From positions 1 to 64,000 of the forward strand of contig JALVUD010000008.1 in assembly GCA_027035765.1 (NCBI GenBank): a stretch of 64,000 nt of DNA, in the 5' to 3' direction. Source of the stretch: Campylobacteraceae bacterium (lineage in GTDB: Bacteria; Campylobacterota; Campylobacteria; Campylobacterales; Sulfurovaceae). Below, one piece after another: positions 441 through 63,026 of this stretch. Both the position numbers and the translations under genes were made by a program. A model generated the notes under the pieces. The model had not been told where the DNA came from. It worked only from the letters and a program-made list of their open reading frames with translations, and did not search any database. Each line of letters begins with the position of its first letter. Position 1 is the first letter of the stretch.

Positions 441-1124
441 TCACCTTTCTGTTTCATTTTCAGTTTCCGGCTCTTCACCGAAGGGATGTAGCGGTTCAAC
501 CCACCGCAGGATCTTTCCGCCTTTTTTCGTCCATCGCAGCACCGCGACACCGAAGCGAGCCTCCTTTTCGGTTTCCTCAGGTGTGACGGCACGAGGGTAA
601 ATAGTTATCGTTGCAACGGCCATCCCGGGAGTTTTCCCCTCTTTTATCTCCGAAACCCATTGGCCGAAGGGCTCCAGAAAATTGTGAACCCAACGCACTG
701 TCCCTTTATTGCCGGATGGGAAATAGGCAAGATAGGCAGGTTTCATAGCCTCGAAGCGTCCGTTGCGCCATTTGAGGCGGTGATAACGGGTCGGAGAGAC
801 ATCACTCTGCGGTTCGGGAATGATCAACTCCGATGCTCCGTCTCTGTCAACATCCGCCAGCAGTTCGGGAAGTGACACGCCAAAATCGGTCTCGGCGACA
901 AAAAAAGGATTTTCCGGGTCCTTGGTAGCCTTCGATCTCCAAAGCACCTTTCCATTATCATCGCGAACTTCTAGAAAATAGTAGGTTCCCATCCCATCTT
1001 CCCCGGCTTTGATCCAAAAAAGCTGTTCGGGCTTGCCGTTGTGGTCCAGGTCAGCACTCAAAAAATTTCTAGCGGCAGCCGCCCCATAGACAAACAACAA
1101 CATGATCAAAAGATATTTTCTCAT
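441..1124 (-). CDS. Exported protein with two calcium-loop-like repeats (FG-GAP/VCBS style)
   Basis: From ATG 1124 the 227-residue product begins with a signal peptide (MRKYLLIMLLFVYGAAAA). Two loops, ADLDHNGKPE and ADVDRDGASELIIPEP, have the D-x-D-x-(D/N)-G spacing of calcium-binding beta-propeller repeats. A longer frame to 1247 exists, but ATG 1124 overlaps the previous stop as ATGA and gives a proper signal peptide. The C-terminus is acidic (EEPETENETER). It sits in a four-gene minus-strand run of exported proteins. A periplasmic or surface location is inferred; function is unknown. Confidence 0.65.
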   Translation of the reverse strand: MRKYLLIMLLFVYGAAAARNFLSADLDHNGKPEQLFWIKAGEDGMGTYYFLEVRDDNGKVLWRSKATKDPENPFFVAETDFGVSLPELLADVDRDGASELIIPEPQSDVSPTRYHRLKWRNGRFEAMKPAYLAYFPSGNKGTVRWVHNFLEPFGQWVSEIKEGKTPGMAVATITIYPRAVTPEETEKEARFGVAVLRWTKKGGKILRWVEPLHPFGEEPETENETER

Positions 1125-2379
1125 CGTTTCATCCTCTGTTCTTCGATTTTTCGACCCGTCCAGTCCCCGTCCCACCGGCCGGTGCCAAACCCATATCGCC
1201 ACTTCCCGGTAAATGAGCGTCCATCGTCGGAAAAATTGAAATAGCACTCTCCTGCATCATGAGCGGGACGATAAGTCGGAGCCTCAAACCATTGACAGAC
1301 CAGCCGTCGCCCCCTCATGGTTCCCGTGATCCGACCATGGTCATGGGTATAGGTCCCGCTCATATGACCGTTTTTCATTTGCAGTATCATCGTTCCAAAT
1401 GTGGTCTGCCATTTTCCGGCCGGGAAAGTCGACGCACCCGTAGGCAAAGTACCATTCACCCCCGAAAAAGGATTGATGAAGGGATCTGAATAGACCACCC
1501 TGTAGTGTTGATTCCCGATATCCAGAATCAAGCCTTTACCCTTTTGGAACCACATTCGGAAAATCTCTGCGGGCACATCCATTCCGGAACCGTTTGGATT
1601 TCCGGGACACCATACATGGGCCGCTTCCAGTGTCCCTTTTGCCGCCGGATGGGACATTCCGGTCAGATGGCCACGGTAAGGGATACGGGCACTGGTCCAA
1701 CACGGCTGTCCCGGTGGAGATGATTTTCCTTTGACCGTGTAAACCCCTTCGATCGATCCGCCTGGGGTGATCTTCAACGTCAATGTCGAAGCAAGACGAT
1801 CCTGCGTCCATCCGCTGTAATGAAAAGTTTTTACCGGAGAAGCAACCCCGCTTTGCGCTGCTTTCGGCGAAATCAAAGGCCTTGGTTTTTCAGCCGCATT
1901 GGAACACTCTTCCGGTTGGTTGGCATCCAGCCAATCCGGCCCGGAGATTGCATGGATTTTCCCCTCTTTATAAAGCTTTCCGTTTTTTTCGATGCAACGA
2001 TAGTAATAACCCTCCGATAAGATCGGCCCCCCGTCGCATGGCGATAAAACCAAAGTGCCACCAAATTTTCCCCGTTACGATAGCCCCTCATCCCCCCGAT
2101 CGCGTCATAGTAACCTGTTTCACCGGATGAATCGTCGGATGCTGTGAGACATTGGTGATCGCAGTATCCCGATCCGGTCTGAGGGATAGAAACAACCGGA
2201 TGATAAATTCCCAACTGTGCCGTTTGAGTAAATCGCCATCCTTGATAGCTATAACCGTCCGTACACCTTTCGCAATCGTAATCACTGACAATGCCTACTT
2301 TTTTCCAATCCGTTTTCTGCCATTCACCGGCTCCCAGCAGGACAATACCCAATCCGATCATCCCTATCAGATATTTCAT
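1121..2379 (-). pseudogene. Exported protein gene split by a -1 frame change at a G6 tract
   Basis: Two overlapping frames together look like one protein of about 418 residues. The first starts at ATG 2379 with a signal peptide (MKYLIGMIGLGIVLLGAG) and reads well to RHATG. Its frame then continues only with unconvincing sequence to a stop at 1873. The second frame becomes protein-like right after the same point (GGPILSEGYYYRCIEKNGK) and ends at 1121. Its only listed start, TTG 2053, has no ribosome site, and a stop lies at 2075-2077. The switch coincides with six G on the coding strand (C6 at 2027-2032), and one more G would restore the frame. A true mutation, a sequencing error, slippage variation or programmed -1 shifting are all possible. 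Function unknown. Confidence 0.6.
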
Positions 2380-22517: not shown

Positions 22518-22757
22518 AGGGTTCTCCTGTACTGTTTTGCACCTGGTTGTCGCGTGGTTCGTTGAGAGTCTCTACGAACCAACCCTTAGCGAAGCGGTGC
22601 CACCTCGATAAAGGTTCTTCACGCAGTCCCTTCCCACTCCGCCATACGTGTATGTGCGGAATTTTAGGGGACGTGATTTTATCAAATTTTTTTTGATTTT
22701 CCGCTTAAACGGAAGAGAGGAACGGCGAAGCTCCAGCCTGCAGGAGGAATGCCGTGT
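22518..22757 (-). promoter_or_regulatory. Promoter and structured leader of the rpmJ-rpsM-rpsK-rpsD-rpoA-rplQ unit
   Basis: On the minus strand a TTTGATAAAATCAC segment (about 22675-22690) offers a -10 TAAAAT. About 130 bases of leader follow. Within it GGTTCGT (22574-22580 read in reverse) pairs with ACGAACC (22556-22562) around an 11-base loop that is itself nearly symmetric. No gene is present here. Autogenous control by S4 is a possibility by analogy with other bacteria, not shown. Confidence 0.45.
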
Positions 22758-22976
22758 TTACTTGTAACGGAAAGTGATCCGTCCTTTGTCGAGGCTGTAG
22801 GGGGTCAGCTCCACCTTGACGCGGTCGCCGGGGAGGATCTTGATATAGTGCATCCGCATCTTTCCGGCGATGTGGCAGAGGACCACATGGCCGTTGTCCA
22901 GCTCGACACGGAAGGTCGCGTTGGGGAGTGCTTCGATCACTTTGCCGTCAATTTCGATTACATCATCTTTCGCCAA
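22758..22976 (-). CDS. infA: Translation initiation factor IF-1
   Basis: The 72-residue product starts at TTG 22976, giving [20 protein letters not shown], the family N-terminus. AAGGAT lies about 7 bases upstream. An upstream in-frame extension to 23045 is not supported. The OB fold with [20 protein letters not shown] and [19 protein letters not shown] is complete. It follows map by 85 bases. A rare TTG start on a highly expressed factor may limit its output. Confidence 0.95.
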
Positions 22977-23061
22977 GTTTCCATCCTTTTGTTCTTGGTT
23001 TGTCTCTGCCGCTTCGGGCACACCCGCGACCGCCGCAGCGGGCACAGGTCTGACTGCCGGC

Positions 23062-23817
23062 TCAGGGGAGGGTCAGGATGACCGCTTTGCCATCAACGAC
23101 CGCCACCTGATGCTCGTAGTGGCTGCCACGCTGGCCGTCCTCACTCACCACCGACCACTCGTCCTCCAGAATCACCGGCTCGCCGCTCTGCTGGCACACC
23201 ATCGGCTCCAGACAGAAAACCATACCGTTTTTGATCTTGGGGCCCTGGTTGGCTTTGCCCTCCAGATAGTTGAGGATATTGGGTTCGTCGTGAGGTTTGG
23301 TACCGATACCGTGACCGCAGTAGTTACGTAGTGGAACGTATCCTCGGGAGGTGATCCCCTTTTCGAGGATCGCACTGAGCTCTTTGAAGCGCATCCCCTG
23401 TCGGATGGCTTCAATCGCTTCATAGAGGGTCTCGCGGGAACAGTCAATGAGACGCTGATCCTCTTCCGAGATTTTTCCCACCGGCATAGTAATGGCCGCA
23501 TCCCCGTAATAACCTTCGAGTTTCGTCCCGATATCCAGCCCCAGTATGTCTCCCTCCTGGACTTTGTAATCGGTCGGAACGCCGTGAATGATCACTTCGT
23601 TGACCGAGGTACAGACGGCGGCGGGGAAACCATACAATCCTTTGAAAGAGGGTTCGGCACCAAGTTTCCGCAGAAACTCCTCTCCCAAAGCATCGATCTC
23701 TTTGAGACTCATTCCAGGCTTGACCGTCTCTTCGAGATAAGCCAGGGTCTGTCCGACGATGGCTCCGGCACGCCGCAGCGTGTCGATCTCGGACGGTTTA
23801 CGCAGAGGAATCGCCAT
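23062..23817 (-). CDS. map: Type I methionine aminopeptidase
   Basis: The 251-residue enzyme removes the initiator methionine. Metal ligands are visible: the two aspartates in [18 protein letters not shown], the histidine in [16 protein letters not shown], the glutamate in FCLEPMV and the final glutamate in [10 protein letters not shown]. It lacks the N-terminal zinc extension of MetAP1c forms. It overlaps secY by one base (TGATG), the usual secY-map-infA order. Confidence 0.96.
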
Positions 23818-32230: not shown

Positions 32231-32824
32231 TTAACTCTCTTTTGTCAGTTTGTCCCAGACGGCTTTTTCAATCACGATGGCGTGATAAGCCGCTGCCAGG
32301 TATCCGTTGAGCTCGTTCTCTTCGATCAGATAGCTCTGCTGCAGGTTGCGGAAGGCCAGGAAAGTCTTGTCGTCGATCATCTCTTTGACCACCAGCAGAT
32401 CCCGCTGGCCAAAGCTGTCGACGAAAGCTTTCGCATCTTTGGTCTTCCCGGATTCGACGGCGACACTGTCGACAACGAAGAGTTTTTCGTTAGCCGCTTT
32501 GTCCGCCAGGGCATGCATCAGCGCCAGGCGCTTCTGCTTTTTGTTGACCTTCTGGGTGTAATTGCGATCGGTCGTGGGACCGAAGACCACACCGCCGCCC
32601 CGGAAATGGGGAGCGCGGATAGAGCCCTGGCGGGCCCGTCCGCCGCCTTTCTGGGCGAAGGGTTTCTTGCCGCCGCCGCTGACTGCGGAACGATTTTTGG
32701 TCTGGGCCGTGTTGGCGCGCAGGTTGGCCGCGTAGGCTTTGCAGTAGAGATAAAGGTTATGGGGATGCACCTCCAGGAAGGCCTGGGGCAGATCCGCTGT
32801 TTTGATTACTGTTGCGTTGCTCAT
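32231..32824 (-). CDS. rplD: 50S ribosomal protein L4
   Basis: The 197-residue L4 has the tunnel loop [20 protein letters not shown], then [20 protein letters not shown]. In E. coli L4 controls the S10 operon, but the leader here is short and shows only one small hairpin. Its ATG overlaps the rplC stop as ATGA. Confidence 0.97.
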
Positions 32825-33402
32825 TTGACAATCCTTACTACTCCGCGGGCACCCTTGTGGCCGGGAACGGCTCCCTTGAGTACCAGGATGCCGTTTTCGG
32901 CATCGAAGGAGATCACTTCATTTTTGACCGTAGTCTTGGCGTTGCCGTAGTGGCCGGGCATCTTCTGTCCGGGCTGGACGCGGCCGGGCCACTCACACAT
33001 GCCGATAGATCCGGGAGCCCGGTGGAAGCGGCTACCGTGGGCGCCGGGACCTCCGGCGAAGTTGTGACGCTTCATGACCCCGCTGAATCCGCGGCCCTTG
33101 CTGTTGAAAGAGGTTTTGACAACGCTGGCATTGGCCAGAGGCTCGGTGCTCAAATCACCGGGCTCGGTTCCCTCGGCGACCTTGAGGGTCATAAACTTGT
33201 TGAACTCTTTGCTGATGCTGAATTTCTTCTGCTGACCCTCGATCGCTTTGTTGATCTTTTTGCTGCTGTTGTAGGCCACCAGCGCTTTACCGTCTTCCCG
33301 GACTTCGCAGACTTTCGCCTCGACGACTTTCAGGAGAGTCACGGGAACACTGGGGACGTCAATCGTTCGGCTCATGCCGATTTTTTCTACGATAAATTCC
33401 AT
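32821..33402 (-). CDS. rplC: 50S ribosomal protein L3
   Basis: The 193-residue L3 starts [20 protein letters not shown]. The core has [20 protein letters not shown], then [20 protein letters not shown], the stretch reaching the peptidyl-transferase centre. An initiator of 50S assembly, it lies 17 bases after rpsJ. Confidence 0.97.
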
Positions 33403-33419
33403 AATTATGACTCCTTACC

Positions 33420-33731
33420 TTACTTGTCCATAGACCGGATTTCGACTTCCACTTCGGGAGCTAGGTCCAGTTTCATCAGCGAATCGATGGTCTCGCTGGT
33501 CGCGGAGACGATATCGATCATCCGGGAGTGGATCCGGATCTCAAACTGCTCCCGACTGTCCTTGTTGACATGGGGTGAGCGCAGCACGGTGTAGCGCTTG
33601 ATCTTCGTGGGCATGGGAATGGGGCCACGAAGCTCCGCGCCGGTGCGGCGGACGGCGTCCACGATGGAAGCCACAGAGCGGTCGAGTACACGGTGATCGT
33701 AAGCTTTAAGCTTCAATCGGATCTTTTCCAT
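33420..33731 (-). CDS. rpsJ: 30S ribosomal protein S10
   Basis: The 103-residue S10 (NusE) begins [20 protein letters not shown] and has [20 protein letters not shown]. It works in the ribosome and in transcription antitermination. AGAAGGAAAACA precedes the ATG. It is the first gene of the S10-spc-alpha array. Confidence 0.97.
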
Positions 33732-42601: not shown

Positions 42602-43939
42602 TCAGTCCTCTTTTCCAAAAACCCGTTCAAAAATTCTGTCGACATTTTTGGTGTAGTAGCTGTAATCGAAAGCCTCCCGGATCTGCCCTTCACTCAACTT
42701 GCTGCGCAGCTCTTCATCTGCGAGGAGGTACTGCAGGAAGAGGCTCTCCCCCTTCTCATTAACAGGAGGATTGCCCTGCTGGAGCGCCTCCCAGACCTTC
42801 ATGGCGTTGCGCTGGACGATCTTGTAGGCCTGCTCACGGCTCACACCCGCTTTGGGCAGTTCCAGCAGGATCCGCTGACTGAAGACCAGGCCGCCGGTGC
42901 GGTTGAGGTTTTTGAGCATGTTCTCGGGCATCACCGTCAGGTTGGCGATAACATTGTTGAAGCGGTGAAGCATAAAGTCCGAGGTGACGAAACTGTCGGG
43001 AAGCCAGAAGCGTTCGGTGGAGCTGTGGGAGATGTCCCGCTCGTGCCAGAGGGCGACATTCTCCATGGCAGGAATGACATAGGCCCGGATGATCCGGGCC
43101 AGGCCGGTGATGTTCTCCGTCAGGATCGGGTTGCGTTTGTGGGGCATAGCCGAAGAGCCCTTCTGCCCTTTGGCGAAATACTCCTCGGCTTCGTAGACCT
43201 CGGTCCGCTGCCAGTGGCGAACCTGGACGGCAAACTTTTCGATGGAGCTGGCCAGCAGTGCCAGCGCCGAGGCCAGCCGGGCATAGCGGTCCCGCTGGAT
43301 CACCTGATTGCTCACCGGGGCCGGCTTGAGGCCCAGCTCTTCACAGGCGATCTCTTCCAATTCCAGGGGGGCATGGGCGAAGTTACCCATGGCACCGCTG
43401 ATCTGACCCACGGCGATCACCTCCATGGTCTGCTCCAGGTTCTCCAGGTGCCGTCGCAGTTCGTCGTACCAGACCGCCAGGACGAGACCGAAAGTGATGG
43501 GTTCACCGTGAATTCCGTGGCTGCGCCCCACCATCAGGGTATATTTGTGCTCCATCGCCCGCTTTTTGACCGACTCCATCACCATCTTTACATCCTCGAT
43601 GATGAGCTCGAGAGAGTCTTTCATCTGGAGTGCCACAGCGGTATCGACCGTATCGGAACTGGTCATCCCGTAGTGGAACCAGCGGCTCTCCTCCCCCAGG
43701 CTCTCGGCGACACTGGTGGTAAAGGCGATGAGGTCGTGCCGGGTCTCAGCCTCGATCTCGTCGATACGTTCAACGGAGAAGGTAGCGTTATCGACGATCT
43801 TCCTGGCATCCTCGTCGGGGATCAGTCCCAGTTTGTTCCAAGCTTTGACCACCGCCTTCTCCACCTCCAGCCAGGCGGCATAGCGGGCGTGCTGCGTCCA
43901 TTTCTCTTTCATCTCTTTGCGTGCGTATCGTTCTACCAC
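42602..43939 (-). CDS. purB: Adenylosuccinate lyase
   Basis: PurB releases fumarate in two steps of purine synthesis. The 445-residue product starts MVERYARKEMKEKWTQHARY. It has TSSDTVDTAVALQM, HGIHGEPITFGL and the fumarase-superfamily signature GSSAMPHKRNPI. The homotetramer has three-part active sites. A stem with ATGGG / CCCAT lies just downstream (42568-42590) and may terminate it before nrdA. Confidence 0.96.
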   Translation of the reverse strand: MVERYARKEMKEKWTQHARYAAWLEVEKAVVKAWNKLGLIPDEDARKIVDNATFSVERIDEIEAETRHDLIAFTTSVAESLGEESRWFHYGMTSSDTVDTAVALQMKDSLELIIEDVKMVMESVKKRAMEHKYTLMVGRSHGIHGEPITFGLVLAVWYDELRRHLENLEQTMEVIAVGQISGAMGNFAHAPLELEEIACEELGLKPAPVSNQVIQRDRYARLASALALLASSIEKFAVQVRHWQRTEVYEAEEYFAKGQKGSSAMPHKRNPILTENITGLARIIRAYVIPAMENVALWHERDISHSSTERFWLPDSFVTSDFMLHRFNNVIANLTVMPENMLKNLNRTGGLVFSQRILLELPKAGVSREQAYKIVQRNAMKVWEALQQGNPPVNEKGESLFLQYLLADEELRSKLSEGQIREAFDYSYYTKNVDRIFERVFGKED

Positions 43940-62540: not shown

Positions 62541-62615
62541 GCGGGAGTAGCTCAGGGGTAGAGCACAACCTTGCCAAGGTTGGGGTCGCGGGTTCGAATC
62601 CCGTCTCCCGCTCCA
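62541..62615 (+). tRNA. tRNA-Gly (anticodon GCC)
   Basis: It is 75 bases with CCA; acceptor GCGGGAG / CTCCCGC; anticodon loop TTGCCAA between CAACC and GGTTG. First of a four-tRNA run; TATAAT (62515-62520) lies 21 bases before it. Confidence 0.95.
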
Positions 62616-62670
62616 GAATCACGATATCGATCTTTCATAAAAAATCGGAAACTTTTACGATGTTCCCGGA

Positions 62671-62758
62671 GCCCGGATGGTGGAATTGGTAGACACAGGG
62701 GACTTAAAATCCCCCGGCCATTGCGGCTGTGCCGGTTCAAGCCCGGCTCCGGGCACCA
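62671..62758 (+). tRNA. tRNA-Leu (anticodon TAA)
   Basis: It is 88 bases with CCA; acceptor GCCCGGA / TCCGGGC; anticodon loop CTTAAAA between GGGGA and TCCCC; long variable arm. It reads UUA/UUG. Confidence 0.95.
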
Positions 62759-62769
62759 TCCCTGATTTC

Positions 62770-62843
62770 GGCGCCATAGCCAAGTGGTAAGGCACGGGCC
62801 TGCAAAGCCCTGATCCCCGGTTCGAATCCGGGTGGCGCCTCCA
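62770..62843 (+). tRNA. tRNA-Cys (anticodon GCA)
   Basis: It is 74 bases with CCA; acceptor GGCGCCA / TGGCGCC; anticodon loop CTGCAAA between GGGC and GCCC. Confidence 0.95.
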
Positions 62844-62876
62844 AGCCTCCGAATATAACTATTCCCCCATTCTTTC

Positions 62877-62964
62877 CGGGAGATGGCCGAGCGGTTGAAG
62901 GCACCGGTCTTGAAAACCGGCGTAGGGAAACCTACCGTGGGTTCGAATCCCACTCTCCCGGCCA
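62877..62964 (+). tRNA. tRNA-Ser (anticodon TGA)
   Basis: It is 88 bases with CCA; acceptor CGGGAGA / TCTCCCG; anticodon loop CTTGAAA between CCGGT and ACCGG; long variable arm (GTAGGGAAACCTAC). It reads UCA. Confidence 0.95.
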
Positions 62965-63026
62965 CCGTATAAAATCAAAACCCCATTTATCCTGATAGTA
63001 ATATAGAGAAGAGAAAAATCGTAACT

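Follow-up and report, generated by a model that had tools for sequence, protein, structure and literature searches.

Near the start of the 64,000-nucleotide stretch analysed here (contig JALVUD010000008.1 of a Campylobacteraceae bacterium; hereafter the window), an exported protein is encoded on the minus strand in two halves that lie in different reading frames, and the locus raises the question of whether this change of frame is regulated frameshifting, slippage variation, a dead gene or an error, the four readings that the first-pass annotation had set side by side. That annotation had described a G6 tract with a slippery-heptamer layout at the switch, and in the sequence itself the tract, the layout and the frame switch are all as it described them. 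The G6 lies at 2027-2032 on the minus strand (C6 on the plus strand), the zero-frame codons across it are ACG GGG GGC CGA, and the second half is read as GGG GGG CCG ATC. This is a -1 relation, and the G GGG GGC heptamer (read from 2032 to 2026) is in the correct phase and direction for programmed -1 frameshifting. The first half of the protein occupies 2379-2033 and the second 2029-1124 (Table 1); no second copy of the broken gene is present in the organism's own genome.

Table 1. Features at the locus of the frame-broken gene (window coordinates).
Feature	Coordinates	Strand	Description	Basis
ORF1 (first half)	1873..2379	-	168 aa; signal-peptide-like start; the intact relative matches about 117 residues, and about 51 wrong-frame residues follow	ORF scan, alignment
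Second-half ORF	1121..2053	-	310 aa from TTG 2053, -1 frame; homologous part 2029-1124, 302 codons	ORF scan, homology
Partner gene C	441..1124	-	227 aa from ATG 1124; adjoins the broken gene; weak, sub-threshold resemblance to FG-GAP	G010 likewise has a homologue after the gene
Slippery-type heptamer	2026..2032	-	G GGG GGC, containing the G6 at 2027-2032; site of the frame change	Window sequence; alignment to intact relative

The first-pass annotation had also placed the switch exactly at the tract, and here the change of frame stands whereas its exact position is not fixed by the window alone. The two open frames overlap there for 199 nt, from 2074 to 1876, and in this doubly open stretch heptamers of the form X_XXY_YYZ fall in phase three times (AAATTTG at 2068, GGGGGGC at 2032 and GGGAAAA at 1963), so that a heptamer is no marker of the switch site. 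In-phase heptamers of the general pattern occur 62 times across 49 long greedy ORFs with 16,542 codons in total, or about 0.25 expected per 66 codons, an average that the three found here exceed. Two further in-phase copies of G GGG GGC sit in long frames that show no switch (at 43366 and 49128, plus strand), and the 2.03 Mb genome contains GGGGGGC 289 times, against 355 for the reversed word. G runs of at least six number 20 in the window, namely the present one, 18 other G6 places and one G7. Homopolymers are the usual places for indels, and since one in three six-base runs will have the phase of a heptamer, the layout is unremarkable; the heptamer would be an incidental outcome of glycine codons that happen to form a run of Gs.

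That the lengths differ within the G/C run is known only from a DNA alignment with the closest relative that holds the gene (G009; MAG contig JALWPZ010000025.1, titled Campylobacteraceae bacterium). In this relative the gene is a single intact ORF of 419 residues, which supplies the intact homologue with one ancestral frame expected of an indel pseudogene; its run is one base longer, and neither the G6 nor the heptamer is present there. The second half in the window is 89% identical to the G009 protein, and over 301 codons it carries no second lesion (stop or uncompensated indel) relative to G009. Omega against G009 is 0.157 over the first 116 codons and 0.178 over the last 301. Both halves are thus under similar purifying selection, and, with these values and no second lesion, the further decay or relaxed selection of an indel pseudogene is not seen. 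The first frame extended past the tract, by comparison, looks unconstrained (omega 2.7 over 49 codons, a rough value with one synonymous change) and runs into a stop in G009. Since purifying selection is evident on both halves, the break is either recent or an error. The dS between the window and G009 is lower in the gene (0.24-0.32) than in its neighbours (0.71-0.99), and a fully identical stretch lies near 2133-2252 (L002 in G009). Both are signs of recombination, and the lower dS suggests that it has transferred the gene itself at a later date than the sequence on either side.

We consider the most probable reading, at roughly 0.6, to be that an indel has recently inactivated an exported-protein gene that is dispensable and patchily distributed. 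A one-base length change in the G/C-rich run would have put the last 302 codons out of frame, and the cell would make a 168-residue product of about 117 native and 51 foreign residues. The organism would then truly carry the sequence as printed, and no useful frameshifting would take place at the tract. In addition to the intact G009 ORF that lacks both G6 and heptamer, and to the similar omega of the two halves, several observations on the distribution and state of the gene support a recent break. Homologues are found in 4 of the 13 genomes of the genus, the organism's own included; the homologue in G008 (L032:6423-7304), which is shorter and has a signal-peptide-like start, contains an in-frame TAG; and in G009 it is the partner gene that is frame-broken (L002:851-1624). 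As most members of the genus are without the gene and the homologue in one other carrier is interrupted by a nonsense codon, the gene would be dispensable in the genus and its loss here recent. The patchy distribution extends further, with homologues of the full-length query in 8 of 199 relatives and of the G010 query in 10 of 175 family genomes; many of the wider matches span only about the last 100 residues. No match to the gene was found in the two genomes most closely related over the flanks, G001 (75% complete) and G006 (88%), and G006 has at the site a single small gene where the window has two paralogous ones, which likewise favours a recent break. Against this reading, the absence of a second lesion in 301 codons means that there is no independent sign of gene death, and purifying selection on the second half would be expected equally if the break were an error or were rescued by frameshifting.

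The main rival to recent inactivation is that a short homopolymer was missequenced or misassembled and the gene is intact in the organism, and we regard it as possible though clearly less likely. It would account for a single homopolymer lesion with no other decay and with purifying selection on both halves, and the contig ends in a repeat 2 kb away from the break, a position that also counts against a real mutation. Antonov et al. (2013; PMC3711429) expect singleton frameshifted genes to be mostly sequencing errors, which favours an error here and weighs against a recent break; the present case resembles that class, with no difference of note, in its one break, its intact homologue, its unconserved site and the lack of a second genome with the break, and the class itself covers both indel pseudogenes and sequencing errors. 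The quality of the assembly speaks the other way. The genome is 99.89% complete in 47 contigs, and no other clear break was seen at the 18 other G6 places or the one G7 of the window.

A control for split genes, in which 123 ORFs of relatives matched the window at 60% identity or more (stretches of G001 and G006, together with G008 and G009; the fetched G001 and G006 stretches covered 55 of the 62 greedy window ORFs of at least 100 aa), flagged four as split in the window, and the broken exported-protein gene was the only clear case among them. Of the other three, L042:1705-2190 is a chance ORF overlying what we take to be an SRP RNA and a tRNA-Ser, L025:8098-8847 looks by eye antisense to an ankyrin-like gene, and L025:10890-12002 spans two neighbouring ORFs across about 110 nt. 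In the reverse direction three ORFs of the window came out as split in a relative (22749-23081, 32812-33594 and 62552-62965); at the last of these a one-base difference in an A run near the ORF end leaves the last 30 or so codons in another frame in G001. A nucleotide version returned 12 pairings of an ORF with a relative in which the net frame differed; by eye, most of these lie at ORF starts, alignment ends or low-complexity sequence. One clear split gene among 123, with no other found in the window, argues against an error-rich assembly, and a single error would still be compatible with it.

Readings in which the break has a function fare much worse. Poly-G phase variation is common in Campylobacter, which belongs to the same phylum, and the G run here likewise lies in frame within a gene for an exported-type protein, so tract-length differences between cells might switch the protein on and off. 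Phase-variable loci in C. jejuni are, however, defined by seven or more repeats (PMC4965091, excerpt), and the present tract is a G6 rather than a long hypermutable run, is absent from the intact relative, and stands in a genome with only two G8 runs; we rejected phase variation on these grounds as very improbable, and the slippage variation proposed earlier finds no support. Regulated frameshifting, or a -1 ribosomal (or transcriptional) slip on G GGG GGC that rescues the full-length protein, is more improbable still. The heptamer layout, its phase and direction are those of programmed -1 frameshifting on X_XXY_YYZ (PMC4066793, excerpt), and the second half is still under purifying selection, but the site is not conserved (the G009 gene is a single ORF without the heptamer, and the G010 homologue is also a single ORF), and the same heptamer is common in unbroken frames. 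Folding of three downstream stretches is no more stable than that of shuffled sequence (z of +1.73, +1.21 and +0.10 in pseudoknot-free folding), so no stimulatory structure was found in them, and by eye no Shine-Dalgarno-like sequence is present in the 20 nt before the heptamer. One member of the motif class is also reported to slip very rarely: G_GG.G_GG.U, a related motif, gave 0.018% in E. coli without a stimulator, the lowest frequency reported; the excerpt of that paper does not name G_GG.G_GG.C itself, and the motifs it gives as picked for the genome search include no G_GG.G_GG motif (PMC4066793). Programmed frameshifting was therefore rejected, an intact relative without the tract being what the first-pass annotation had itself named as telling against it, and a new indel whose effect is offset in part by low-level -1 slippage on the G6 heptamer, leaving both halves visible to selection, is no more credible. 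The least probable course is translation of the second half alone from the internal TTG at 2053; the ORF is open from that codon, and in G010 a homologue of the C-terminal module is a separate exported-type protein, but the product here would have no signal peptide and the TTG is out of register with the gene in G009.

The intact gene without the tract in G009, the lack of a stimulatory structure in the stretches folded and the shortness of the tract thus favour the last pair of the original readings, a dead gene or an error. The locus is either an ordinary accessory gene whose frame is broken or a slip in the assembly, and not a recoding candidate. Annotation should show a single broken gene, or a suspected assembly error, in place of two genes; and where the site is not conserved, a G run that combines a frame break with a slippery-heptamer layout deserves little weight.

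Searches for the nature of the encoded proteins gave little. Neither half of the broken gene nor the two small genes had a Pfam match at E up to 1, partner gene C had weak FG-GAP and RHS Pfam matches below the cut-off, the four proteins queried against NCBIfam had no match, and PADLOC and PDB searches likewise returned none. A structure model of the intact relative's protein, built from a 3-row alignment, was useless (mean pLDDT 31.5), and a scan for promoters and terminators yielded about as much as shuffled sequence. The homologue in G010 is an intact single ORF of 300 aa, and behind it lies a gene homologous to the partner gene. In the window the accessory pair is bracketed by two paralogous small exported-type genes, at 84-437 and 2453-2773 (41% identity), and the single small gene in G006 may mean that recombination between these paralogues led to a gain or a loss. 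Positions 1-127 of the window are the end of a repeat present five times in the organism's own genome, once identical over the 127 bases, which presumably resembles the end of an IS1595-type transposase; the small gene at 84-437 appears to have lost its final codons to this repeat.
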